Below are positions 10,467-44,047 of a stretch of DNA of 64,000 nucleotides, piece after piece. This stretch comes from Rubrivivax gelatinosus IL144 (GTDB lineage Bacteria > Pseudomonadota > Gammaproteobacteria > Burkholderiales > Burkholderiaceae_C): contig NC_017075.1 in assembly GCF_000284255.1 (NCBI RefSeq), forward strand, positions 4,774,001-4,838,000, read 5' to 3'. The notes beneath the pieces were generated by a model. That model saw only the letters and a program-made list of their open reading frames with translations. It was not told the origin of the DNA and did not search any database. Position 1 is the stretch's first letter. Each line of letters opens with the position of its first letter. Both the position numbers and the translations under genes were made by a program.

Positions 10467-11216
10467 ATGGCCAAGACCGTCCTGCCCCCGGAGCCCGCGA
10501 CGCCGCGCCTGCTGCGCAGCGAGGATGAACTGGCCACGCTGCCGGTCTCCGAACGCATCCGCTACCGCCTGGTCTGCGCGGACAAGCGCTTCCACGCCAA
10601 CGACAACATCGCCGACTTCGTGCGCGAGGGCGAACTGCCCGAGCTGAAGAAGGAGGTGCAGGCCAAGCTCGAGGAGCTGCTGCGCGCGCTGGTCATCGAC
10701 ACCGAGAGCGACCACAACACGCAGGAGACGGCCAAGCGGGTGGCCAAGATGTACATCGACGAGGTCTTCCGCGGCCGCTTCCACCCGATGCCGTCGGTGA
10801 CCGAGTTCCCCAACGCCGAGCGCCTGAACGAGCTGATGATCGTCGGCCCGATCACCGTGCGCAGCGCCTGCAGCCACCACCTGTGCCCGATCTTCGGCAA
10901 GGTCTGGATCGGCCTGCTGCCCAACGAGCACAGCAACCTGATCGGGCTGTCCAAGTACGCCCGCATCACCGACTGGATCATGAGCCGGCCGCAGATCCAG
11001 GAGGAGGCGGTGACGATGCTCGCCAACGAACTGCAGGAGCGCGTGCGCCCCGACGGCCTGGCCATCGTGATGGAAGCCGACCACTTCTGCATGCACTGGC
11101 GCGGCGTCAAGGACACCGACAGCGCGATGGTCAACAGCGTGATGCGCGGCGCGTTCCTGAAGGATCCGAACCTGCGGCGCGAATTCCTCTCGCTGCTGCC
11201 GCGCAAGCAAGACTGA
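10467..11216 (+). CDS. folE: GTP cyclohydrolase I
   Basis: This enzyme converts GTP to 7,8-dihydroneopterin triphosphate, the first step of folate (and other pterin) synthesis, as a toroidal decamer. It has 249 residues, slightly longer than the 222-residue E. coli enzyme because of an N-terminal extension. The catalytic and zinc-binding motifs are intact: SACSHHLCPIFG (Cys and His ligands) and ADHFCMHWRGV (second Cys). The GTP-binding region includes VMEADHFCM and GLSKYARI. It is followed after 10 nt by a BLUF photoreceptor gene, an uncommon partner. A CACAAT -10-like box lies at 10419-10424, leaving a 42-nt leader. Confidence 0.95.
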   Translation: MAKTVLPPEPATPRLLRSEDELATLPVSERIRYRLVCADKRFHANDNIADFVREGELPELKKEVQAKLEELLRALVIDTESDHNTQETAKRVAKMYIDEVFRGRFHPMPSVTEFPNAERLNELMIVGPITVRSACSHHLCPIFGKVWIGLLPNEHSNLIGLSKYARITDWIMSRPQIQEEAVTMLANELQERVRPDGLAIVMEADHFCMHWRGVKDTDSAMVNSVMRGAFLKDPNLRREFLSLLPRKQD

Positions 11217-34825: not shown

Positions 34826-35665
34826 TCAGGCCGGCTGGGCGCCGCGCCCGAGTTCCTTGCGGTAGCGGTTGAGGTCCTGGACGCTGGCGAAGCTGCGCCC
34901 GAACAGCAGGCTGAGGTTGTGCAGGATGCGTTCGACGACGCGGCCTTCCCACTCGGCGTCGAAGCGGATCTGGCGGTCCAGCCAGGCTTCGAGCCAGGCC
35001 GGGTCGGGCAGCCGGCTCTGCACCGTGTCGTTGGGGAACAGCTTGGCGTTGACGTGCAGGTTGGTCGGGTGCAGCGCCTGCGCGGTGCGGCGCGCGCTGG
35101 CCATCAGCACGCCGACCTTGGCGAAGGCGCTGCGCGCCTCGTCGCCGCAGCGCACGAGCGCCCGCTTCATGTAGCGCAGGTAGGCGCCGCCGTGGCGCGC
35201 TTCGTCGCGCGCCAGCGTCTCGTAGATCGCCTGGATCACCGGCTCGGTGTGCCACTCGGCGGCGCGGCGGTACCAGTGGTTGAGCCGGATCTCGCCGCAG
35301 AAGTGCAGCATCAGCGTCTCCAGCGCCGGCGCCGGGTCGAACTCGAAACGCACCGCGTGCAGTTCGTCCTCGGTCGGCGCGAGGTCGGGGCGGAAACGCC
35401 GCAGGTACTCCATCAGCACCAGCGAGTGTTTCTGCTCCTCGAAGAACCAGACGCTCATGAACGCCGAGAAGTCGCTGTCCTCGCGGTTGTCGCGCAGGAA
35501 CATCTCGGTGGCCGGCAGCGCCGCCCACTCGGTGATGGCGTTCATCTTGATGGTCTGCGCCTGCTCGTCGCTGAGGCGTGCGGCATCGAAGCGCTCCCAC
35601 GGAATGTCCGTGTCGAGGTTCCAGCGCACGGCTTCGAGCTGCTTGAAGAGTTCGGGATACAGCAT
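34826..35665 (-). CDS. ferritin-like diiron protein related to acyl-ACP desaturases
   Basis: This soluble helical protein of 279 residues shows two ExxH di-iron motifs: Glu77-His80 in FFEEQKHS and Glu155-His158 in LARDEARHGG. Further candidate ligands are Glu46 or Glu54 and Glu125. The wording and spacing resemble the EENRHG and DEKRHE motifs of plant-type acyl-ACP desaturases, so a fatty-acyl desaturase or oxygenase is my best guess. The family assignment is from motifs only. It lies 68 nt downstream of the LitR-type regulator on the same strand, with a TAGACT -10-like box between them (35693-35698). Context ties it to the light-responsive lipid cluster opposite. Confidence 0.7.
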   Translation of the reverse strand: MLYPELFKQLEAVRWNLDTDIPWERFDAARLSDEQAQTIKMNAITEWAALPATEMFLRDNREDSDFSAFMSVWFFEEQKHSLVLMEYLRRFRPDLAPTEDELHAVRFEFDPAPALETLMLHFCGEIRLNHWYRRAAEWHTEPVIQAIYETLARDEARHGGAYLRYMKRALVRCGDEARSAFAKVGVLMASARRTAQALHPTNLHVNAKLFPNDTVQSRLPDPAWLEAWLDRQIRFDAEWEGRVVERILHNLSLLFGRSFASVQDLNRYRKELGRGAQPA

Positions 35666-35733
35666 GGCGGGCTCGTGAAGTCGTGACGCCCGAGTCTAGG
35701 CAGCCGCGTGCAACCGCGTGCGCGTCGGGTTGT

Positions 35734-36672
35734 TCAGCGCGGCGTCTCGCGCCAGCGGCGCAGCTCGGGCGCGATCTGGTCCAGCGCATCGATCGGCAGC
35801 ACGCCCTCCAGGCGACGCCGGAACAGCACCGGCGCGCTGCCGCCGACCCAGATGCCGACCTCGGCCGGCAGCTTCTCGCGCAGCTCGGCCAGACCGTCGA
35901 CGACCTGGTTGGGACTCATGCAGCCGGAGAAGCTGAGGGCGACGATGTCGGCGCGATAGGCGCCCGCGGCCAGCACGATGTCCCACAGCGGCGTCTGCGT
36001 GCCCAGGGCGATGCAGCGGCAGCCGTCCATCGCCATCAGCGTCTCGCACATCAGCAGGCCCAGGCCGTGCGGCTCGCCGGGGAAGGTGCTCAGCAGCACC
36101 GACGGCGTGCCGCCGTCCAGCGGCTCGGGCACCGAGGCGATCGCCTGGCGCAGCAGGCTCTGCACGGTCTCGGTGTACAGGTGCTCCTCGTAGACCTCGA
36201 CCTGGCCGCGCAGCCAGGCGTCGCCGACGGCGGTGTTCAGCGGCGCGACGACGTCGACGACGAAACGCGAGATGCCGTGGCGCACCAGCATCCGGCCGAG
36301 CTCGCGCCGCAGGCCGGCGGGGTCGTGGCGGCGCAGGAGGTCGAGGGCGCGCTCCAGGTCGGCGGAGGCCACCGTGTTGTCGGCGCGGCGCTGCGGCTGG
36401 TCGACGGTGGACGCGGTCAGTTCGTTGAGCTCGGCGGCCGGCATCGGGACGATGCGGCCGGGGCGGTGGCCGGCATCGAGCAGGCGCTTGATGAGGCGGA
36501 GCTTCTCGACCTGTTCCAGGGGGTAGGCGCGTTCGCCCTGCGGATCGCGCGAGGGGGACGGGAAGCCGTAGCGACGCTCCCAGACACGCAAAGTGTCCTT
36601 GCTGAGGCCGGTGTCGCGTTCGACGGCGGCGATCGACAGCGTCAGCGCTTCAACGTTGGTGCGCTCGTTCAT
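35734..36672 (-). CDS. litR: CarH/LitR-type B12-dependent photoreceptor, MerR-family regulator
   Basis: This 312-residue regulator has a MerR-type DNA-binding head (residues 11-75; LSKDTLRVWERRYGFPSP) followed by a B12-binding domain. The photochemical signature Wx9EH is exact: Trp153 then Glu163-His164 in the four-helix bundle. The cobalamin-binding loop reads Glu200-Pro-His202-Gly-Leu-Gly205, matching ExHxxG with the axial His. Proteins with both motifs bind adenosylcobalamin in the dark as DNA-bound tetramers and fall apart in light, freeing their targets. The likely targets are the divergent operon from 37154 and its own gene. Palindromes with TTGTCC/GGACAA lie just upstream. Confidence 0.9.
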   Translation of the reverse strand: MNERTNVEALTLSIAAVERDTGLSKDTLRVWERRYGFPSPSRDPQGERAYPLEQVEKLRLIKRLLDAGHRPGRIVPMPAAELNELTASTVDQPQRRADNTVASADLERALDLLRRHDPAGLRRELGRMLVRHGISRFVVDVVAPLNTAVGDAWLRGQVEVYEEHLYTETVQSLLRQAIASVPEPLDGGTPSVLLSTFPGEPHGLGLLMCETLMAMDGCRCIALGTQTPLWDIVLAAGAYRADIVALSFSGCMSPNQVVDGLAELREKLPAEVGIWVGGSAPVLFRRRLEGVLPIDALDQIAPELRRWRETPR

Positions 36673-36688
36673 CCGCAGCGCCTTGGTG

Positions 36689-36701
36689 TTGTCCTGGACA
36701 A
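36689..36701. promoter_or_regulatory. candidate LitR operator 1 (perfect palindrome)
   Basis: TTGTCC-T-GGACAA is a perfect 13-bp palindrome 16 nt upstream of the litR start codon. That is a natural place for autoregulation. A related imperfect copy lies 63 bp away. Confidence 0.5.
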
Positions 36702-36751
36702 AGCCATGATGGATTTCGAAAGTTGACCTAATATAGGCCTAAGTCGCACGT

Positions 36752-36764
36752 TTGAACAGGACAA
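36752..36764. promoter_or_regulatory. candidate LitR operator 2 (imperfect copy)
   Basis: TTGAACAGGACAA keeps 10 of 13 positions of the perfect palindrome at 36689-36701. The centre-to-centre distance of 63 bp is six helical turns, so a tetramer could bind both on one face of the DNA. Confidence 0.4.
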
Positions 36765-36805
36765 GACATCGTCAAAGCCGCGACCTGCACTGCAAGAACT
36801 TAAAT

Positions 36806-36821
36806 GTGACTGTATAGTCAC
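36806..36821 (+). promoter_or_regulatory. inverted repeat over a likely -10 box of the light-cluster operon
   Basis: GTGACT-GTAT-AGTCAC is a perfect inverted repeat with 6-bp arms. It covers TATAGT (36813-36818), a good -10 hexamer for the plus-strand operon. A regulator bound here would block RNA polymerase directly. No strong -35 is visible at 36790-36795. It lies in a short AT-rich patch (taaatgtgactgtatagtca) in otherwise GC-rich DNA. Confidence 0.5.
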
Positions 36822-36842
36822 TAAGCATACCGAGAGGTTCAC

Positions 36843-37154
36843 ATGACGCCGATGCCGCAGCAGATCCCACGTTCCGCCACCTGTCCGCCGTCAAGGTCTG
36901 CGGAACTTTGCGCGCCGACGCCGGTCACAGCGGGCAAGAAGGTCGCCAACGCGGCCGCAGTTCTCCTGTCGTGCGGACTCACGGGTCTCCTGTCTGCCAA
37001 GCCTGAGCGTTTCTCCTCCTCCTCCCTCCCTCCCTCGTTCGCTCAGCGCCGCCGCACGGCAGTCTTTCTCTCCCGGCGTACCGCCTCGTGCGGTACGCCG
37101 GCCCTCCGGGGTCGGGTCCACCTGAACGCGCACGGCGCGGCGGGGAGTCGCTGA
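36843..37154 (+). other. long 5' leader of the light-cluster operon with a possible small ORF
   Basis: The region between the -10 box and the FAD oxidoreductase is about 330 nt. It contains an open frame of 103 codons that starts at an ATG preceded by gagagg. Its stop at 37152-37154 shares one base with the next ATG (TGATG), the layout of translational coupling. The encoded peptide is Ser/Arg/Pro-rich and unlike any family I know. The middle holds a pyrimidine tract (37011-37036) and the end a strong hairpin (37073-37101). It could be a real small gene, a leader peptide, or an untranslated regulatory leader. I see no other gene here. Confidence 0.35.
37073..37101 (+). promoter_or_regulatory. 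strong hairpin in the leader of the FAD-oxidoreductase operon
   Basis: CCGGCGTACCGC (37073-37084) pairs perfectly with GCGGTACGCCGG (37090-37101) around a 5-nt loop (CTCGT). No U-tract follows, so it is not a simple terminator. Its position 52 nt before the operon's first major start suggests a role in mRNA stability or translation control. Confidence 0.5.
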
Positions 37155-38446
37155 TGCGCCGCGTCGCTGTCGTCGGCTCCGGGATCGCCGGCCTGGCCGC
37201 TGCCTACGAACTGTCCTCCGATGCCCGCGTCACGCTGTTCGAGGCGGGCGACTATTTCGGCGGCCACACGAACACGATCGACCTGACGGTCGACGGCGTC
37301 ACGCACGGCGTGGACACCGGCTTCCTGGTCTTCAACCACCGCACCTACCCGAACCTGCTGCGCCTGTTCGCCGAACTCGGCGTCGAAACCGCACCGTCGG
37401 ACATGTCGTTCTCGGTGCAGGCGCGCGAGCACGGCCTGGAATGGAGCGGCTCGGACCTGAACTCCGTCTTCGCCCAGCGCCGCAACCTGCTGCGCCCGCG
37501 CTTCCTGAAGATGCTGGCCGAGATCGTGCGCTTCAACCGCCTGGCCACCGCGATCGCCGAGGCCAGCGCCGAGGACGCGCTGGCCGAGCCGATCGGCGAG
37601 TTCCTCGACCGCCACGGCTTCGGCAACGACTTCCGCGACTGGTACTTCCTGCCGATGATCGGCTGCATCTGGTCCTGCCCGACCGAACAGATGCTGCGCT
37701 TCCCGGTCGCGACGATGATCCGGTTCTGCCACAACCACGGCCTGATCCAGGTGAACGACCGGCCGCAGTGGCACACCGTGCGCGGCGGCGCCCGCAACTA
37801 CGTCGAGAAGATGCTGCCGCGCATCGCCGACGCGCGCGTGTCCAGCCCGGTGTTCCAGGTGCGCCGCGATGCCGACGGCGTGGCCGTCACCTCGACGGCG
37901 GGCACCGAGCGTTTCGACGAACTGGTGCTGGCCTGCCACAGCGACCAGGCGCTGGCGCTGCTGGCCGACGCCAGCGAGGACGAACGCGCCGTGCTCGGCG
38001 CGATCCGCTACCAGCCCAACCGCGCCGTGGTGCACGCCGACGCCTCGGTGCTGCCCCAGCGCAAGCTGGCCTGGGCCTCGTGGAACTACGTGCGTTCGCC
38101 CGACCGCGGCCGCGAGCAGGCCGCCGTCTGCCTGCACTACCTGCTCAACCGGCTGCAGCCGCTGCCCTGGACAAAGCCGGTCATCGTCTCGCTGAACCCC
38201 GAGATCGAGCCGGCGCCGGAGACCGTCTTCCGCGAGATCGAGTACGCACACCCGGTGTTCGACCTCGGCGCGATCGAGGCCCAGCGCCGCGTGCCGGCGC
38301 TGCAGGGCCGCAGCCGCACCTGGTTCTGCGGCGCCTGGACCCGCTACGGCTTCCACGAAGACGGCCTGGCCTCGGCGCTGGACGTCGTGCGCGCGGTGCG
38401 CGCCCACTGGCAGGCCGGCCGCCCGGCGCTGCACGAGGCCGCGTGA
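37154..38446 (+). CDS. NAD(P)/FAD-dependent oxidoreductase (amine-oxidase-like)
   Basis: This FAD enzyme of 430 residues starts with a complete dinucleotide-binding motif, RRVAVVGSGIAGLAAAYELS, then the ADP-ribose acid in TLFEAGDYFGGHTNT, typical of the amine-oxidase/phytoene-desaturase superfamily. The C-terminal FAD motif is RTWFCGAWTRYGFHEDGLAS. Homologues in singlet-oxygen and light-response clusters always travel with DUF1365 and a CFA-synthase-like gene, exactly as here. Their substrate is thought to be a membrane lipid or fatty acid; that is inference. The next gene overlaps its stop (TGATG). Confidence 0.93.
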   Translation: MRRVAVVGSGIAGLAAAYELSSDARVTLFEAGDYFGGHTNTIDLTVDGVTHGVDTGFLVFNHRTYPNLLRLFAELGVETAPSDMSFSVQAREHGLEWSGSDLNSVFAQRRNLLRPRFLKMLAEIVRFNRLATAIAEASAEDALAEPIGEFLDRHGFGNDFRDWYFLPMIGCIWSCPTEQMLRFPVATMIRFCHNHGLIQVNDRPQWHTVRGGARNYVEKMLPRIADARVSSPVFQVRRDADGVAVTSTAGTERFDELVLACHSDQALALLADASEDERAVLGAIRYQPNRAVVHADASVLPQRKLAWASWNYVRSPDRGREQAAVCLHYLLNRLQPLPWTKPVIVSLNPEIEPAPETVFREIEYAHPVFDLGAIEAQRRVPALQGRSRTWFCGAWTRYGFHEDGLASALDVVRAVRAHWQAGRPALHEAA

Positions 38447-39216
38447 TGGACGCCACCACGGGCACCACGCCGCAGGCCCTGCTGGGCACCGGCGTCGTGC
38501 GCCACCGGCGCCTGAAGCCGGCCGGGCACGCCTTCGAGTACACGACCTACTTCATGCTGCTGCCGATGCGACGGCTGCGCGCCGCGCCCGAGGCCGCGGT
38601 GCGGCGCAACCGCTTCGGCCTCGTGGCCTTCCACGACGCCGACCACGGCGACGGCCGCGCCGACTCGCTGGCCTGGCTGGAGGAACTGCTGGCCGCCGAA
38701 GGCATCGCCGACGCCGACGGCGAGATCTGGCTGCACACCTACCCGCGCGTGCTGGGCTACGTCTTCAAGCCGGTGAGCTTCTGGTACTGCGAGCGGCGCG
38801 ACGGCTCGCTGGCGGCGATCGTCGCCGAGGTCAACAACACCTTCGGCGAGCGCCACTGCTACTTGCTCGCCGGCGAGGACCTGCGCTGGGGCCGCGAGCT
38901 CGTCGCGCGCAAGGTCTTCCACGTCTCGCCGTTCTGCCGCGTCGAAGGCCGCTACCGTTTCCGCTTCCTGCGCACCGCCGAGCGCACGGTGGCGCGCGTG
39001 GACCACGACGACGACGAGGGCCCGCTGCTGCTGACCAGCGTCAGCGGCCGCCTGGCCCCGCTGACCGCGGCCGCCGCACGCGCGGCCTTCTTCGGCATGC
39101 CGATGATGTCCCTGGGCGTCATCGTGCGCATCCACTGGCAGGCGCTGCAGCTATGGCTCAAGCGCGTGCCGTTCATCAGCAAGCCCGAACCGCCCCGGGC
39201 GTTCACGACCCGCTGA
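38446..39216 (+). CDS. DUF1365 protein
   Basis: This protein of 256 residues belongs to DUF1365, a family of unknown biochemical role. Conserved segments are GVVRHRRLKPAGHAFEYTTY near the N-terminus, LHTYPRVLGYVFKPVSFWYC in the middle, and EVNNTFGERHCYLL. It nearly always accompanies an FAD oxidoreductase and a CFA-synthase-like methyltransferase, so it probably takes part in the same fatty-acid modification. The start overlaps the previous stop. The C-terminus (FFGMPMMSLGVIVRIHWQAL) is hydrophobic and might touch the membrane. Confidence 0.92.
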   Translation: MDATTGTTPQALLGTGVVRHRRLKPAGHAFEYTTYFMLLPMRRLRAAPEAAVRRNRFGLVAFHDADHGDGRADSLAWLEELLAAEGIADADGEIWLHTYPRVLGYVFKPVSFWYCERRDGSLAAIVAEVNNTFGERHCYLLAGEDLRWGRELVARKVFHVSPFCRVEGRYRFRFLRTAERTVARVDHDDDEGPLLLTSVSGRLAPLTAAAARAAFFGMPMMSLGVIVRIHWQALQLWLKRVPFISKPEPPRAFTTR

Positions 39217-39229
39217 CCCAGGAACCGCC

Positions 39230-40453
39230 ATGACGACGACGACCGCCAACGCCTTCGCCCTGCCCGAGTCCGCTCCCGCGGCCGCCCGCACCGTCTTCCG
39301 CCTGCTGCGGCGGCTGGCCGTCGGCACGCTGGACGTGCAGCTGCCCGACGGCAGCCTGGCCCATTTCGGCACCGGCCGCGAAGGCGAGCCGCGCGCTTCG
39401 ATGCGCATGCTCGACTGGAGCGTCTGCTCGGCGACGCTCAAGAGCGGCGACATCGGCTTCGCCGAGGCCTACCTCGACGGCCTCTGGACCTCGCCCGACG
39501 TCGTCGCGCTGCTGCAGCTGTTCATCGCCAACCGCGAGGCCGTCGAGGACGCGATCTACGGCCGTTGGTGGGGCTCGCTGCTGCACCGCTTCAAGCACCT
39601 GCTCAACCGCAACTCGCGCCGCGGCAGCCGCAAGAACATCCACGCCCACTACGACCTGGGCAACACGTTCTACCGGCTCTGGCTGGACGAGACGATGAAC
39701 TACTCGAGCGCCTGGTTCGACGGCGACACGAGCAAGCCCATGCCCGAGGCCCAGCGCGCCAAGGTGCGGCGCGCGCTGCGCGAGTGCGGCGTGCGCGCCG
39801 GCGACCGCGTGCTCGAGATCGGCTGCGGCTGGGGCGCGGTGGCCGAGGCCGCGACCAACGAGTTCGGTGCCCGCGTCACCGGCGTCACGCTGTCGACCGA
39901 GCAGCTGGCCTACGCCCGCGAGCGCCTGGCGCGCCTGGGCCTGGGCACCCAGGCCGACCTGCGGCTGCAGGACTACCGCGACATCCAGGACGGCCCGTTC
40001 GACGCCGTCGTCTCGATCGAGATGTTCGAGGCCGTCGGCCGCGAGTACTGGGGCAGCTACTTCCGCACCGTGCGCGACCGGCTCAAGCCCGGCGGCCGCG
40101 CCTGCATCCAGTCGATCACGATCCGCGACGACCTGTTCGCGCGCTACCTGCGCTCGACCGACTTCATCCAGCAGTACGTCTTCCCCGGCGGCCTGCTGCC
40201 CAGCGCCTCGGCCTTCCGCGCCGAGGCGCGCAAGGCCGGGCTGGAGGTCGTCGGCGAACTCGCTTTCGGAGCCGACTACGCCGAGACGCTGCGCCGCTGG
40301 CGCGTGGCCTTCCTCGCCCAGGAGAACACGGTGCGCGCCCAGGGCTTCGACACGCGCTTCGTGCGCATCTGGGAGTTCTACCTCGCGTACTGCGAGGCGG
40401 CCTTCGCCACCGGCAACACCGACGTCGTGCAGTTCACGCTGCGCCGGACCTGA
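39230..40453 (+). CDS. cyclopropane-fatty-acyl-phospholipid synthase family methyltransferase
   Basis: This SAM-dependent enzyme of 407 residues modifies unsaturated acyl chains in phospholipids. The SAM site is DRVLEIGCGWGAVAEAA; the acceptor-binding part has NIHAHYDLGNTFYRLWLDE and NYSSAWFD, both diagnostic of the family, and VSIEMFEAVGREYWGSYF follows. It could make cyclopropane fatty acids or, like the UfaM-type relatives found in singlet-oxygen regulons, a methylated precursor of furan fatty acids. The companion genes here (FAD oxidoreductase, DUF1365) favour the latter kind of chemistry, but I cannot prove it. Confidence 0.93.
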   Translation: MTTTTANAFALPESAPAAARTVFRLLRRLAVGTLDVQLPDGSLAHFGTGREGEPRASMRMLDWSVCSATLKSGDIGFAEAYLDGLWTSPDVVALLQLFIANREAVEDAIYGRWWGSLLHRFKHLLNRNSRRGSRKNIHAHYDLGNTFYRLWLDETMNYSSAWFDGDTSKPMPEAQRAKVRRALRECGVRAGDRVLEIGCGWGAVAEAATNEFGARVTGVTLSTEQLAYARERLARLGLGTQADLRLQDYRDIQDGPFDAVVSIEMFEAVGREYWGSYFRTVRDRLKPGGRACIQSITIRDDLFARYLRSTDFIQQYVFPGGLLPSASAFRAEARKAGLEVVGELAFGADYAETLRRWRVAFLAQENTVRAQGFDTRFVRIWEFYLAYCEAAFATGNTDVVQFTLRRT

Positions 40454-40996
40454 ATGGACGCCACGCGTCGCGCCCTGCTGGCCGCCGCGTTCGCCCCCGG
40501 CGTGGTGCTCGCGTCCCGGCCGCTGACGCCGCCGCCCGAGCTGGCCGCCTATGCGCCGCTCGCGCTGCGCGGCGAAGGCCGGCTGCGCGTGCTCGGCTTC
40601 GCGATCTACGACGCCCGGCTGTGGACCGGCGAGGGCTTCGCGCCCGAGCGCTGGGCCGACGCGCCGCTGGCGCTGGAGATCCGTTACGCGCGCGGCTTCG
40701 CCGGCCGCGACATCGCCGAGCGCTCGATCGCCGAGATGCGCCGCCAGGGTGAACTGCCCGAGGCCCAGGCCCGGGCCTGGCAGCAGGCGATGGCCACGAT
40801 GTTCCCCGACGTGAAGCCCGGCGACCGCCTGGTCGGCGTGCGCGGAGCCGACGGCGGCACGCGTTTCTACGCCAACGGCCGGCGCATGGGCGAGCTCGAC
40901 GACACCGAGTTCGGCCGCCGCTTCTTCGGCATCTGGCTGGCGCCGCAGACCTCGGAGCCGACGCTGCGCTCGCGCCTGCTCGGCCAGATCGGATGA
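40454..40996 (+). CDS. chalcone-isomerase-like secreted protein
   Basis: This 180-residue protein starts directly after the methyltransferase stop. It has an N-terminal RR-containing signal-like stretch (RRALLAAAFAPGVVLASRP). The core reads LRVLGFAIYDARLWTGEGF and LALEIRYARGFAGRDIAERS, matching the bacterial chalcone-isomerase-like family (PF16036), whose fold binds fatty acids. No true chalcone isomerase activity is expected. It probably binds or carries a modified acyl chain in the periplasm. It overlaps the transporter gene by 4 nt. Confidence 0.85.
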   Translation: MDATRRALLAAAFAPGVVLASRPLTPPPELAAYAPLALRGEGRLRVLGFAIYDARLWTGEGFAPERWADAPLALEIRYARGFAGRDIAERSIAEMRRQGELPEAQARAWQQAMATMFPDVKPGDRLVGVRGADGGTRFYANGRRMGELDDTEFGRRFFGIWLAPQTSEPTLRSRLLGQIG

Positions 40997-42291
40997 ACGC
41001 CATGGGCCTGGAGACACGCGCGGGCGCCGGCGCGGCGCCGCGCTGGCGTGGCGGCTTCGCCGACGGCCTGCGCTACGGCGCGCTCGGCCTGCCGCTGGCC
41101 TTCGTCGCGCTGCCGCTGTACGTGCTGCTGCCGGCGCACTACGCCGCCGAATACGGCGTGCCGCTGGCGACGCTGGGCGCGCTGCTGCTCGCGGTGCGCG
41201 CGTTCGACGCCGTCGTCGACCCGGCGATCGGCCGCCTCGTCGACCGCCTGTTCGCCGGCTCGCCGGCGCGGCTGCTGGCCGTCGCCGCGGCGGCGGCGCT
41301 GCTGCTGGCCGCCGCCTTCCACGGCCTGTTCTTCCCGCCGGTGGCCGGCGGCACGGCGCTGCTGGCCTGGTGCGCGGCGCTGCTCGTCGCCGCCTACCTG
41401 GCCTACAGCCTGCTCGCCGTGCTGCACCAGGCCTGGGGCGCGCGCCTGGGTGGCGACGCCGCGGTGCGTGCACGCATCGTCTCCTGGCGCGAAGGGCTGG
41501 CGCTGGCCGGCGTGCTGGTCGCCAGCGTGCTGCCCTCGCTGGCCGGGCTGCAGGCCACCAGCGCGGTCTTCGCCGTCGCGCTGGCGCTCGCGCTGCTGCT
41601 GCTGGCCGGTGCACCGCGCGCCGAGCCGGCGCCGGCCGCCCAGCGCTTCGATTGGCGCGCACCGCTGGCGACGCCGGCCTTCCGCCGCCTGCTCGCCGTC
41701 TTCCTCGTCAACGGCATCGCCAGCGCGGTGCCGGCGACGCTGGTGCTGTTCTTCGTGCGCGACCGGCTGCAGGCCCAGTCCTGGGAGCCGGTGTTCCTGG
41801 CCGCCTACTTCGCCGCCGGCGCGCTGGCGATGCCGCTGTGGGTGAGGCTGGTGCCGCGCCTCGGCCTGGCCGGCGCCTGGCTGGCCGGCATGGCGCTGGC
41901 CGTCGCCGCCTTCGTCTGGGCGGCGACGCTGGGGCCGGGCGACACGACGGCTTTCGCCGCGGTCTGCGTGGCCAGCGGCGTCGCGCTGGGCGCCGACCTG
42001 GCGCTGCCCGGCGCGCTGCTGGCCGGCATCGTGCGCGGCGCCGGCCACGGCGGCCGCGAAGGCGCGTACTTCGGCTGGTGGAACCTGGCCACCAAGCTGA
42101 ACCTGGCGCTGGCCGCCGGGCTGGCGCTGCCGCTGCTGGGCCTGGCGGGTTACGCGCCGGGCGCCCGTGAACCCCAGGCGCTGGCGGCGCTGGCCGCCGC
42201 CTACTGCCTGCTGCCCTGTGTGCTGAAAACCGCCGCCGCCGCGCTGCTGTGGCGCTGGCGGCACCGACTCGACGAGGAGAACCCACGATGA
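40993..42291 (+). CDS. MFS transporter of the GPH/MFS_2 type
   Basis: This inner-membrane protein of 432 residues has about twelve hydrophobic helices. The first helix region reads LRYGALGLPLAFVALPLYVLLP, followed by LLLAVRAFDAVVDPAIGRLVDR, the conserved helix 2-3 motif of the melibiose-type (GPH) family. Relatives in similar photo-oxidative clusters are of this type. In eukaryotes one branch (MFSD2) carries lipids, so a lysophospholipid or fatty-acid cargo is conceivable here, but that is inference. The start overlaps the upstream stop and its own stop overlaps the DUF3833 start (ATGA). Confidence 0.88.
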   Translation: MNAMGLETRAGAGAAPRWRGGFADGLRYGALGLPLAFVALPLYVLLPAHYAAEYGVPLATLGALLLAVRAFDAVVDPAIGRLVDRLFAGSPARLLAVAAAAALLLAAAFHGLFFPPVAGGTALLAWCAALLVAAYLAYSLLAVLHQAWGARLGGDAAVRARIVSWREGLALAGVLVASVLPSLAGLQATSAVFAVALALALLLLAGAPRAEPAPAAQRFDWRAPLATPAFRRLLAVFLVNGIASAVPATLVLFFVRDRLQAQSWEPVFLAAYFAAGALAMPLWVRLVPRLGLAGAWLAGMALAVAAFVWAATLGPGDTTAFAAVCVASGVALGADLALPGALLAGIVRGAGHGGREGAYFGWWNLATKLNLALAAGLALPLLGLAGYAPGAREPQALAALAAAYCLLPCVLKTAAAALLWRWRHRLDEENPR

Positions 42292-42815
42292 ACCGACGCC
42301 TGCTGCTAGGGCTGGCCGCCGCCGCGGCGCTGGCCGGCTGCGCCGGCCCGACCCCCGCCGACTACGCCGCCGAGAGCCCCAAGCTCGACCTGAAGACCTT
42401 CTTCAACGGCGAGATGACGGCGCACGGGATGTTCGCCGACCGCTCGGGCAAGGTGGTGCGCCGCTTCACGGTGCAGATGACCGGCACCTGGAACGGCGAC
42501 GACGGCGTGCTCGACGAACGTTTCACCTACAGCGACGGCAAGACCGAGCGCCGCGTCTGGAAGCTCAAGTCGCTGGGCGGCGGGCGCTACGAGGGCCGCG
42601 CCGACGACGTCGTCGGCGTCGCCCTGGGCACGGCCGCCGGCAACGCGCTGAACTGGCGCTACACGCTGAAGCTGCCGGTCGACGGCAGCGTCTACGAGGT
42701 CCAGTTCGACGACTGGATGTTCCAGATGGACGACAAGGTGATGCTGAACAAGGCCGAGATGAGCAAGTTCGGCGTTCGCCTCGGCGAAGTCACGCTCGCC
42801 TTCCAGAAGCACTGA
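42288..42815 (+). CDS. DUF3833 lipoprotein
   Basis: This is a 175-residue lipoprotein. The signal peptide LLLGLAAAAALAGCAGP ends at a lipobox LAGC with Cys18 as the lipidation site. The mature part matches DUF3833: LDLKTFFNGEMTAHGMFADR, WKLKSLGGGRYEGRADDVVG and MFQMDDKVMLNKAEMSKFGV. The fold is lipocalin-like, so it may bind a lipid. It is the sixth gene of the operon and is co-translated with the transporter through a 4-nt overlap. Confidence 0.9.
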   Translation: MNRRLLLGLAAAAALAGCAGPTPADYAAESPKLDLKTFFNGEMTAHGMFADRSGKVVRRFTVQMTGTWNGDDGVLDERFTYSDGKTERRVWKLKSLGGGRYEGRADDVVGVALGTAAGNALNWRYTLKLPVDGSVYEVQFDDWMFQMDDKVMLNKAEMSKFGVRLGEVTLAFQKH

Positions 42816-42818
42816 ACA

Positions 42819-43604
42819 ATGGCCCTGAACCCCCCGCTGGCCGACTGGAAGGGCCGCAGCGCCTGGCTCGTCGGCGCCTCCACCGGCATCGGCCGCGCGA
42901 CCGCCTCGCGGCTGCATGCGCTGGGTGCCCGCGTCACCGTCTCGGCGCGCGACGCCGAAGCGCTGGCACGTTTCGTCGCCGCGCATCCGGGCAGCGTCGC
43001 GCTGCCGCTGAACGTGACCGACCGCGCCGCGGTGCAGGCCGCGGCCAAGCAGGTGTTCACACAAAGCGGCACGCCCGACCTCGCGCTGTACTGCGCCGGC
43101 ACCTACACGCCGATGCGCGCCACGGCCTTCGACCTCGACGTCGCGCTGCAGCACGTGCAGGTCAACTACGCCGGCGCGCTGCACTGGCTGGACGCGCTGC
43201 TGCCGGCAATGCGCGCGCGCGCCGCCGCCGGCCAGGGCGCGCACCTGAGCCTGGTCGGCAGCGTCGCCGGCTACCGTGGCCTGCCGCAGTCGCTGGCCTA
43301 CGGGCCGACGAAGGCGGCGCTGATCAACCTCGCCGAGACGCTGTACCTGGACCTGCACCCGGCCGGCGTCGGCGTGTCGATCGTCAACCCGGGGTTCGTC
43401 GACACGCCGCTGACGGCGCAGAACGGTTTCCGCATGCCGGCGCTGCTGACGCCCGAAGAAGCCGCCGAAGCCATGCTGCGCGGCTGGGCGCGCGGCGACT
43501 TCGAGATCCACTTCCCGCGCCGCTTCACGCTGTGGCTGAAGGCGCTGCGCCACATCGGCTACGGCCCGTACTTCGCCGCGGTGCGGCGTTCCACCGGCCT
43601 GTGA
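42819..43604 (+). CDS. short-chain dehydrogenase/reductase
   Basis: This NAD(P)-dependent oxidoreductase of 261 residues has the classical SDR layout. The cofactor motif is LVGASTGIGRA, the structural motif lies in LYCAGTYTP, the catalytic Ser is in LVGSVAGYRG, and the YxxxK pair is in LAYGPTKAALI. The C-terminal about 30 residues (HFPRRFTLWLKALRHIGYG) are basic and amphipathic, consistent with a membrane-facing substrate. It begins 3 nt after the DUF3833 stop, within the lipid-modification operon. Confidence 0.92.
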   Translation: MALNPPLADWKGRSAWLVGASTGIGRATASRLHALGARVTVSARDAEALARFVAAHPGSVALPLNVTDRAAVQAAAKQVFTQSGTPDLALYCAGTYTPMRATAFDLDVALQHVQVNYAGALHWLDALLPAMRARAAAGQGAHLSLVGSVAGYRGLPQSLAYGPTKAALINLAETLYLDLHPAGVGVSIVNPGFVDTPLTAQNGFRMPALLTPEEAAEAMLRGWARGDFEIHFPRRFTLWLKALRHIGYGPYFAAVRRSTGL

Positions 43605-43606
43605 CG

Positions 43607-44047
43607 ATGAAGACCGCACACCCCGACCCGCGCGTGCAGCGCCTGGTGCAGGCCTTCGAGACGCTGTCGCCGGCCGACCTGGCGCGGCTGGGCGAGGTCT
43701 ACGCACCTGATGCCGTCTTCAAGGACCCGTTCAACGAGGTCCGCGGCGCTCCCGCGATCGCGGCGATCTTCGAGCACATGTTCCGCACGCTGGAAGCGCC
43801 GCGTTTCGTCGTGCACGAAGCGGTGGCCGCCGGCGAGCAGTGTTTCCTGACCTGGGACATGCACTACCGCATGAAGCGCTTCGTGCGCGGCGAGCAGACG
43901 ATCCGCGGCGCGACCCACGTGCGCTTCGCCGCCGACGGCCGCGTCGCGCTGCACCGCGACTACTGGGACGCCGCCGAGGAGCTCTACGAGAAGCTGCCCG
44001 CCGTCGGCGCCGCGATGCGCTGGCTCAAGCGCCGCGCGTCGAGCTGA
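43607..44047 (+). CDS. NTF2-like (SnoaL-type) protein
   Basis: This small alpha+beta cone-fold protein of 146 residues begins 2 nt after the SDR. Conserved features are YAPDAVFKDPFNEVRGAPAI and ATHVRFAADGRVALHRDYWD, typical of nuclear-transport-factor-2-like proteins of the steroid-isomerase/SnoaL class. Members of this form regularly end these operons. It may bind a lipid intermediate or be a small isomerase; catalytic residues cannot be assigned. Its stop codon lies in the left arm of a long inverted repeat (44043-44085). Confidence 0.88.
   Translation: MKTAHPDPRVQRLVQAFETLSPADLARLGEVYAPDAVFKDPFNEVRGAPAIAAIFEHMFRTLEAPRFVVHEAVAAGEQCFLTWDMHYRMKRFVRGEQTIRGATHVRFAADGRVALHRDYWDAAEELYEKLPAVGAAMRWLKRRASS

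Follow-up and report, generated by a model that had tools for sequence, protein, structure and literature searches.

What lies between the gene of a putative light-responsive repressor and a divergent operon of lipid-modifying genes, and what might the whole set do? We addressed this question for a stretch of 64,000 nucleotides of the Rubrivivax gelatinosus IL144 genome (contig NC_017075.1, positions 4,774,001 to 4,838,000; hereafter the window, in whose numbering all coordinates are given). Here litR, encoding a CarH-like regulator, faces an eight-gene operon that begins with ufaD, and a gene for a diiron protein lies behind litR. The window is part of a genome of 5.04 Mb on a single contig, which encodes two Photo_RC proteins and therefore very probably belongs to a purple phototroph. 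Among all findings, the one that raises interest most is the RNA in front of ufaD: on comparative sequence evidence, the leader of the operon is a conserved structured RNA.

Structured RNA in the ufaD leader

The litR-ufaD intergenic region contains the following features.

36688..36702, no strand assigned: operator-like palindrome A, GTTGTCCTGGACAAA (motif scan)
36729..36734, plus strand: -10-like TAATAT between the palindromes, candidate promoter towards ufaD with a degenerate -35 (consensus and inference)
36751..36765, no strand assigned: operator-like palindrome B, TTTGAACAGGACAAG, 63 bp from A (motif scan)
36806..36821, no strand assigned: perfect palindrome GTGACTGTATAGTCAC (sequence inspection)
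36902..36929, plus strand: sigmaE-type promoter-like GGAACTT-N16-TCACA (pattern scan)
36959..37086, plus strand: structured RNA (model R1), with P1 pairing 36966-36976 with 37052-37062, P3 pairing 37003-37009 with 37040-37046, and a C/U-rich loop at 37012-37039
37075..37099, plus strand: hairpin GGCGTACCGC-CTCGT-GCGGTACGCC without a T-run

RNAalifold predicted 21 base pairs from 44 aligned copies of the RNA, 18 of them with compensatory changes. The covariation score of this alignment was 0.558, whereas shuffles gave 0.261 (standard deviation 0.012) and sliding the pairing partners no more than 0.13. Out of 55 copies, 50 and then 44 were aligned, omitting near-duplicates (L002, L179 and L183) and copies whose loops are shifted or atypical (L026, L138, L159, L162, L193, L205, L211 and L212). 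In 37 further copies, gathered with the model and placed in a model-made alignment that leans to the model, the score was 0.505 versus 0.275 (standard deviation 0.013), with 16 pairs showing compensatory changes and none of 500 shuffles scoring as high. This set was derived from 49 copies by omitting ten whose core is identical to a model row and two that differ from one by a single base (L255 and L272); every remaining core departs from all model rows, with 3 differences in 60 bases in the nearest cases.

The model matched 144 of 200 genomes of the family, once each, and 8 of 220 genomes of the order, including all six of the window's own family; two of these eight (G368 and G372) are weak matches without the loop motif, and the stricter filters used in these searches lose weak matches. 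The genome under study has a single occurrence of the loop pattern. Within 220 nt upstream, GGAACTT-N15-17-TCnnA was found in 36 of the 55 RNA copies, with one mismatch allowed in the first part, compared to 0.3 in shuffled sequence and none on the opposite strand. We additionally inspected 24 family loci of 14-15 kb, consisting of four found in the order search and 20 taken from among the 144 family matches, hand-picked on long contigs and not random. The RNA stands just before ufaD in 11 of them; ufaD, the diiron gene and a glutathione peroxidase gene are each present in 11, and LitR in five. Nine of the 24 carry the RNA with none of these four module genes. Because such loci exist, we regard the RNA as a gene of its own that often stands just before ufaD. 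Several stand-alone copies have a terminator at the position of the last hairpin; in the window this hairpin lacks a T-run, and read-through into ufaD is therefore plausible.

Covariance searches against Rfam 15 gave no match at the RNA in the window (up to E 1), save for a 12-bit hit to IRES_Bip, whose gathering score is 40, and none at the RNA in loci L172, L135 and L174 (up to E 0.5). Searches of open-access papers yielded nothing relevant on a sigmaE small RNA of Rubrivivax or Comamonadaceae, and a Bordetella small-RNA paper considered as a prior description was rejected, as its excerpts concern a repeat element. By Rfam and the open-access literature, the small RNA has thus apparently not been described before. 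A sequence-only reading of the window had named the leader as one element of a combination that looked new, and had overlooked its conserved structured RNA, its sigmaE-type promoter and the twin palindromes at litR.

RNAs of the cuckoo/CcsR family are defined by a C/U-rich anti-Shine-Dalgarno motif in a hairpin loop, with the loop motif CCUCCUCCC, and the loop of the window RNA, TCTCCTCCTCCTCCCTCCCTCCCTCGTT, fits this definition. By analogy, the C/U-rich loop would function by mirroring the anti-Shine-Dalgarno sequence of the ribosome. The alphaproteobacterial CcsR/cuckoo RNAs also share a stress-type promoter and a phototroph setting with it (PMC10253847; papers cited here and below by such numbers are represented by excerpts). 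However, they accompany a DUF1127 gene, form four tandem copies in Rhodobacter and are linked to RpoH (PMC10253847), whereas the present RNA is single-copy, has a sigmaE-type promoter and belongs to Burkholderiales. No DUF1127 gene stands beside the RNA in the window, where litR and ufaD flank it; because of this and the differing promoter type, we did not file it as cuckoo/CcsR.

A 103-codon open reading frame (ORF; 36843-37154) overlaps the RNA and is open in the window and two close relatives. Over 17 sequences, the open stretch in its frame ranges from 0 to 218 codons and reaches at least 100 in 12. The frame that reads TCC through the loop is open upstream more often than the others (a stop within 30 codons in 8 versus 26 and 47 of 69 copies), and the distance from the loop to ufaD favours two phases (25, 17 and 5 of 47). 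Substitutions in this frame show no third-position excess (499, 636 and 665 in the 69 copies). The outcome over the 69 copies is thus mixed: the leader ORF may be coding, but the substitution pattern lends this no support, and the RNA structure is better supported than a leader peptide.

Operator-like palindromes upstream of litR

Word enrichment in 40 litR-ufaD intergenic regions (four duplicates left out) yielded TTTGTCC and GGACAAA, which give the palindrome TTTGTCC-W-GGACAAA. On this result, both the Pseudomonas operator TGTACA-N12-TGTACA and the 11-bp direct repeats of CarH were rejected as the operator. At a threshold of at least 11 of 15 positions, the palindrome is present in 80 of 96 litR upstream regions (exact repeats removed) and in at least two copies in 53, while shuffled sequence gave 5.6; this shuffle test is not fully independent, because some of these data had also served to find the motif. 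A stronger case comes from the fixed spacing, with 44 pairs spaced 63-65 bp compared to 0.14 in shuffled sequence. The consensus of 28 regions with 63-bp spacing contains promoter-like elements oriented towards the divergent operon, a TTGAC-like -35 just past site A and, beyond it, a TAaTaT-like -10. In loci without litR, the palindrome was found within 420 nt upstream of ufaD in 3 of 38 and upstream of the diiron gene in 7 of 108.

The perfect palindrome GTGACTGTATAGTCAC sits between palindrome B and the sigmaE-type promoter; a similar core is present in two close relatives (L218 and L134).

LitR as a CarH-like regulator

The genome holds one LitR match. The protein comprises MerR_1, B12-binding_2 and B12-binding domains, the last at 30.7 and thus just under the cut-off of 32.1, and its residues 12-249 align with Thermus CarH structures. 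In an alignment of 106 rows (95 distinct sequences, that of the window included), the Wx9EH motif (W153, E163 and H164) is kept in 94, 95 and 93 of the distinct sequences, and ExHxxG (E200, H202 and G205) in 94, 93 and 94. The GG of the B12 motif is found in 104 of the 106 rows; at the SxV/T step, the window protein has SFS and 88 rows have SFS or SFT, so that the strict pattern ExHx2G...SxV/T...GG fails. We counted LitR as CarH-like because it keeps both motifs by which CarH is defined, including the adenosyl-capping Wx9EH (PMC8156234). CarH of Thermus and Bacillus shares these motifs, the MerR domain and the adenosyl-B12 domain; unlike it, LitR has no equivalent of His132, and its putative operator is a twin palindrome, not a set of 11-bp direct repeats (PMC8156234, PMC10442372).

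In Pseudomonas, genes for UfaM, a flavin adenine dinucleotide (FAD) oxidoreductase and a short-chain dehydrogenase/reductase (SDR) are light-induced and controlled by a class II LitR with a LOV partner (PMC9758184). The PplR/PmlR region of these bacteria resembles the window in that LitR stands beside the SDR, FAD oxidoreductase and ufaM genes, and its two operator sites, one over the -35, parallel the two palindromes found here. Class II LitR differs in missing one B12 domain, being run by LOV and using TGTACA-N12-TGTACA, whereas the window LitR has both B12 domains and another palindrome (PMC9758184). In Vibrio cholerae, blue light induces a cyclopropane-fatty-acid (CFA) synthase gene, and ChrR and a MerR-like protein control the response (PMC5241685). 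The claim that the combination with LitR was new does not hold, since LitR control of ufa genes in light has been published for Pseudomonas (PMC9758184); the diiron partner and the leader RNA remain as new elements.

Gene content and the furan fatty acid pathway

All genes that had been named around LitR and in the overlapping eight-gene operon proved to be intact ORFs in place and matched the expected families in a Pfam-type profile search.

34826..35665, minus strand: diiron protein (DII) with an acyl-ACP-desaturase-like predicted fold (profile, fold and alignment)
35734..36672, minus strand: litR, MerR-type regulator with two CarH signature motifs (profile and alignment)
37154..38446, plus strand: ufaD-like FAD desaturase/oxidoreductase (Amino_oxidase match; PMC7380195)
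38446..39216, plus strand: ufaO-like DUF1365 protein (profile match; PMC7380195)
39230..40453, plus strand: CFA/UfaM-like S-adenosylmethionine-dependent fatty-acyl methyltransferase (CMAS match)
40454..40996, plus strand: chalcone-isomerase-like protein (Chalcone_3)
40993..42291, plus strand: MFS_2 transporter (profile match)
42288..42815, plus strand: DUF3833 protein with an N-terminus judged by eye to be lipoprotein-like (profile match)
42819..43604, plus strand: SDR (adh_short)
43607..44047, plus strand: SnoaL/NTF2-like protein, start taken as 43607 (SnoaL_2)

The eight genes on the plus strand were read as one operon because several start and stop codons overlap. They include all three gene types of furan fatty acid synthesis (FAD desaturase, DUF1365 protein and CFA-like methylase), known as ufaD (RSP1091), ufaO (RSP1090) and ufaM (RSP2144) in Rhodobacter sphaeroides and as RPA2569-2571 in Rhodopseudomonas palustris; the link to photo-oxidative stress is also shared with these systems (PMC7380195). 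In contrast to Rhodobacter, the genes here form one eight-gene operon with an adjacent LitR, a diiron partner, a GGAACTT-type promoter and the RNA in front. The proposed desaturation, methylation and oxidation towards furan fatty acids is thus matched in gene content; the diiron step is superfluous to the known pathway, because furan fatty acid synthesis in Rhodobacter runs on UfaM, UfaD and UfaO, and the excerpts of PMC7380195 name no diiron protein. The core of the cluster is a variation on a known type, as both furan synthesis and LitR-controlled ufa genes in light are published, and the new parts are the diiron partner, the CarH lineage without the ligand histidine, the twin palindromes and the RNA, none of which we found in the open-access papers searched. 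The main text of the SignatureFinder paper likewise contained none of the words looked for on lipids, Rubrivivax, Burkholderia, His132 and gene neighbourhoods.

The diiron protein

The two di-iron motifs noticed earlier were located at E76-E77-Q78-K79-H80 (EEQKH) and D154-E155-A156-R157-H158 (DEARH). The ligand residues E46, E77, H80, E125, E155 and H158 are invariant across 48 homologues, including remote ones at 21-23% identity, and the E-ExxH-E-ExxH ligand set goes together with a predicted four-helix diiron fold. The protein matches FA_desaturase_2 (PF03405) with 33.1 bits, above the cut-off of 22.7, over one stretch of 51 residues (134-184), and AurF with 24.9 bits, under the cut-off of 29.6. 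When its predicted structure was used in a fold search, acyl-ACP desaturases came out on top, ahead of R2-like oxidases and, with Foldseek, of the AurF relative CmlI; the fold is thus predicted to be acyl-ACP-desaturase-like, as had been suggested from the motifs. The best desaturase match by sequence in the PDB reached E 0.0044, and the closest named homologue, at 95%, is from Rubrivivax gelatinosus. Among 14 family members tested at E 0.001, FA_desaturase_2 matched all 14, AurF 13, EncFtn-like five and rubrerythrin one. Plant acyl-ACP desaturases and M. tuberculosis DesA2 share the predicted fold, the ligand pattern and the FA_desaturase_2 match; the sequence match of the window protein, however, spans about 50 residues, and its identity to them in the structure rows is just 14-18%.

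A remote family of about 270-280 residues (L233-L242, 21-27% identity) occurs in other classes under the source names acyl-ACP desaturase, rubrerythrin or ferritin-like. In the fetched flanks of these remote homologues, no ufa-type match was found, except for one weak SDR.

Conservation of the gene neighbourhood

The sequence-only reading had made its case depend on the diiron gene being conserved beside the cluster in relatives, and this was found. Of the 220 order genomes, 94 encode the diiron protein, 99 a ufaD-like FAD protein and 76 LitR. Diiron and ufaD co-occur in 65 and lie within 12 kb on one contig in at least 44, diiron and LitR co-occur in 55 and lie near each other in at least 35, and LitR and ufaD co-occur in 67 and lie within 12 kb in at least 58, these proximity counts being lower bounds since the assemblies are fragmented. 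The last proportion, together with the recurring gene order described below, indicates that the set exceeds chance. For diiron and ufaD, genome-level co-occurrence has an odds ratio of 6 (p ~5e-10, phylogeny ignored).

We chose 80 order-level loci (L054-L133), consisting of 65 of the 69 regions in which ufaD has diiron or LitR nearby (omitting the window, G232, G355 and G361) and 15 others, mostly with diiron away from ufaD; some are cut by contig ends. The order ufaD-ufaO-CFA-CHI (chalcone isomerase-like)-MFS-DUF3833-SDR-NTF2 recurs in them with few gaps, the genes being present in 66, 66, 65, 51, 55, 56, 54 and 49 loci, respectively. The diiron gene either follows litR, in some loci after an intervening photolyase-related gene, or closes the ufa operon (11 loci), or, where litR is missing, runs divergent from ufaD (7 loci). 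In a second set of 80 named loci, which are the best of 585 and hence skewed to close relatives, with some short flanks, ufaD is found in the diiron flank of 50, LitR in that of 30 and an rfaE2-type gene in that of 19; in 37, the flank has ufaD but lacks an rfaE2-type gene. One order-level locus and 3 of the 20 family loci duplicate a named locus. Outside the order, 3 of 143 genomes of the class encode the diiron protein: one has photolyase-ufaD-ufaO-CFA divergent from SDR-diiron, and a second, read by eye from ORFs, diiron-photolyase-DHFR (dihydrofolate reductase).

Genes for FolE2, glutathione peroxidase, photolyase-related DPRP and DNA photolyase recur around litR-ufaD in the chosen loci; none of these four was found in the window. 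In many loci (L120-L133 and others), including ufa-less ones, an rfaE2-type cytidylyltransferase gene neighbours the diiron gene; a search across the whole window found none. In L174, a weak Rfam match to Trp_leader (10843-10932, E 0.46, under gathering) just 3' of a stand-alone diiron gene is probably due to chance.

Proposed mechanism and alternatives

On balance, we favour the view that the cluster acts as a module for photo-oxidative stress, remodelling membrane lipids into furan fatty acids. Gene content and order, diiron partner, twin palindromes, sigmaE-type promoter and structured RNA are read from the sequence, from which we infer control and chemistry, that is the furan product, the light response, the diiron activity and the RNA function. 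In the dark, LitR with adenosyl-B12 would occupy both palindromes and keep the divergent promoters shut; light or loss of adenosyl-B12 would free them. Independently, sigmaE would respond to envelope or photo-oxidative damage at its own promoter, from which transcription would give the small RNA and, where it reads through, also the operon mRNA. The CFA-type enzyme would methylate an unsaturated phospholipid acyl chain, the FAD enzyme would desaturate the methylated chain, and the DUF1365 protein would insert oxygen to give a furan fatty acid that may scavenge reactive oxygen. The diiron protein, as a desaturase-like oxidase, would most likely carry out a further O2-dependent acyl-chain step, e.g. 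supplying or altering a double bond. The C/U-rich loop of the RNA would most likely pair with purine-rich ribosome-binding sites and dampen translation of other (envelope) mRNAs. We put forward more tentatively that a sigmaE-driven, single-copy small RNA with an anti-Shine-Dalgarno loop, conserved in most of the family and damping many mRNAs, has come to head the furan operon in Rubrivivax-type lineages, one transcript doing both, while a CarH-like repressor without the light-state ligand adds a light or B12 input and the diiron enzyme an acyl step.

Several observations weigh against the favoured view, besides the RNA loci devoid of module genes and the partial dependence of the palindrome count described above. 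In a second, wider scan covering 76 distinct RNA copies, 34 had a sigmaE-like signal and 28 a terminator-like hairpin with T-run. The candidate LitR-controlled promoter of the window keeps the -10 but has a poor -35, and in loci with litR the palindrome lies within 420 nt upstream of ufaD in 26 of 82 (other genes often stand between); direct LitR control of ufaD is therefore putative. The CFA-type protein, which could be a UfaM or a CFA synthase, has a CMAS match and is under the cut-off of every NCBIfam model listed. Diiron occurs without ufaD in the flank, some flanks being short, in 30 of the 80 named loci, and without ufa genes in the third genome from outside the order (L214); the rfaE2-type gene accompanies 44 of the 80 chosen loci as well as the 19 named ones. 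In LitR, Leu154 takes the place of CarH His132, and none of the 95 distinct sequences has His there. A Thermus CarH H132A variant mostly remains tetrameric in light (PMC10442372).

This last point concerns the earlier designation of LitR as a B12 photoreceptor repressor, which stands as far as the CarH motifs go; since the protein lacks the histidine that ligates cobalt in light-state Thermus CarH, its light switch is not assured. LitR might sense adenosyl-B12 or redox state instead of light, given the role of His132 described in PMC10442372. We consider this unlikely, because both CarH-defining motifs are kept, photolyase, FolE2 and ufa genes recur near litR, and an earlier report cited in PMC10442372 has H132A falling apart in light; light sensing, predicted from context, is likely, though not assured. 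For the RNA, a purely cis-acting role as 5' leader of ufaD, by attenuation or sequestering of the ribosome site and perhaps with a small leader ORF, would fit the last hairpin without T-run, the ufaD start 55 nt further on, the possible pairing of the loop with the ufaD ribosome site GGGGAG (37142-37147), and the open upstream frame and preferred phases. The trans-acting small RNA is preferred, and the leader alone seems rather improbable, in view of the nine loci with no module gene nearby, the single match in each of 144 genomes and the missing third-position excess; moreover, five of six RNA copies inspected stand without ufaD and with a hairpin and T-run, four of these five also with GGAACTT.

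The diiron protein could belong to the same stress response as a ferritin-like or rubrerythrin-like scavenger of peroxide or O2, or as an AurF-type N-oxygenase. The AurF (sub-cut-off in the window protein), EncFtn-like and rubrerythrin matches of its family, its position beside glutathione peroxidase or photolyase genes without ufaD in several loci, and the known Rhodobacter pathway, in whose published excerpts no diiron protein is named (PMC7380195), make this a real contender, albeit one we hold less probable than an acyl-chain step; the fold ranking and the consistent FA_desaturase_2 match speak against it. Alternatively, its place near the ufa genes may be an inherited map position, diiron travelling with the rfaE2-type gene and the light cluster adjoining by chance. 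Both the frequency of the rfaE2-type gene, ufa-less loci included, and the fact that the ufa block adjoins the diiron-rfaE2 pair in both orientations are consistent with this. We regard it as distinctly unlikely, since 37 named loci and the window itself have diiron and ufaD without rfaE2, diiron ends the ufa operon in 11 chosen loci, the diiron-ufa link recurs in another order without rfaE2 (L216), and diiron and ufaD co-occur across genomes at the odds ratio given above.

Under the module view, the putative desaturase-like diiron enzyme, conserved and tied to furan-lipid and light-stress genes, is a directly testable object. The natural CarH lineage offers a test of the light-switch mechanism, as it lacks the histidine thought to trigger the switch, and the small RNA, strongly covarying and present in 144 of 200 family genomes, would here sit where a phototroph controls the protection of its membrane. 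Some LitR-less clusters (L127 7458-8153, L056, L073, L087 and L096) share a recurrent ORF, which in L127 is divergent from ufaD and TetR-type by Pfam; this suggests a TetR-type protein as a candidate alternative controller of the ufa operon.

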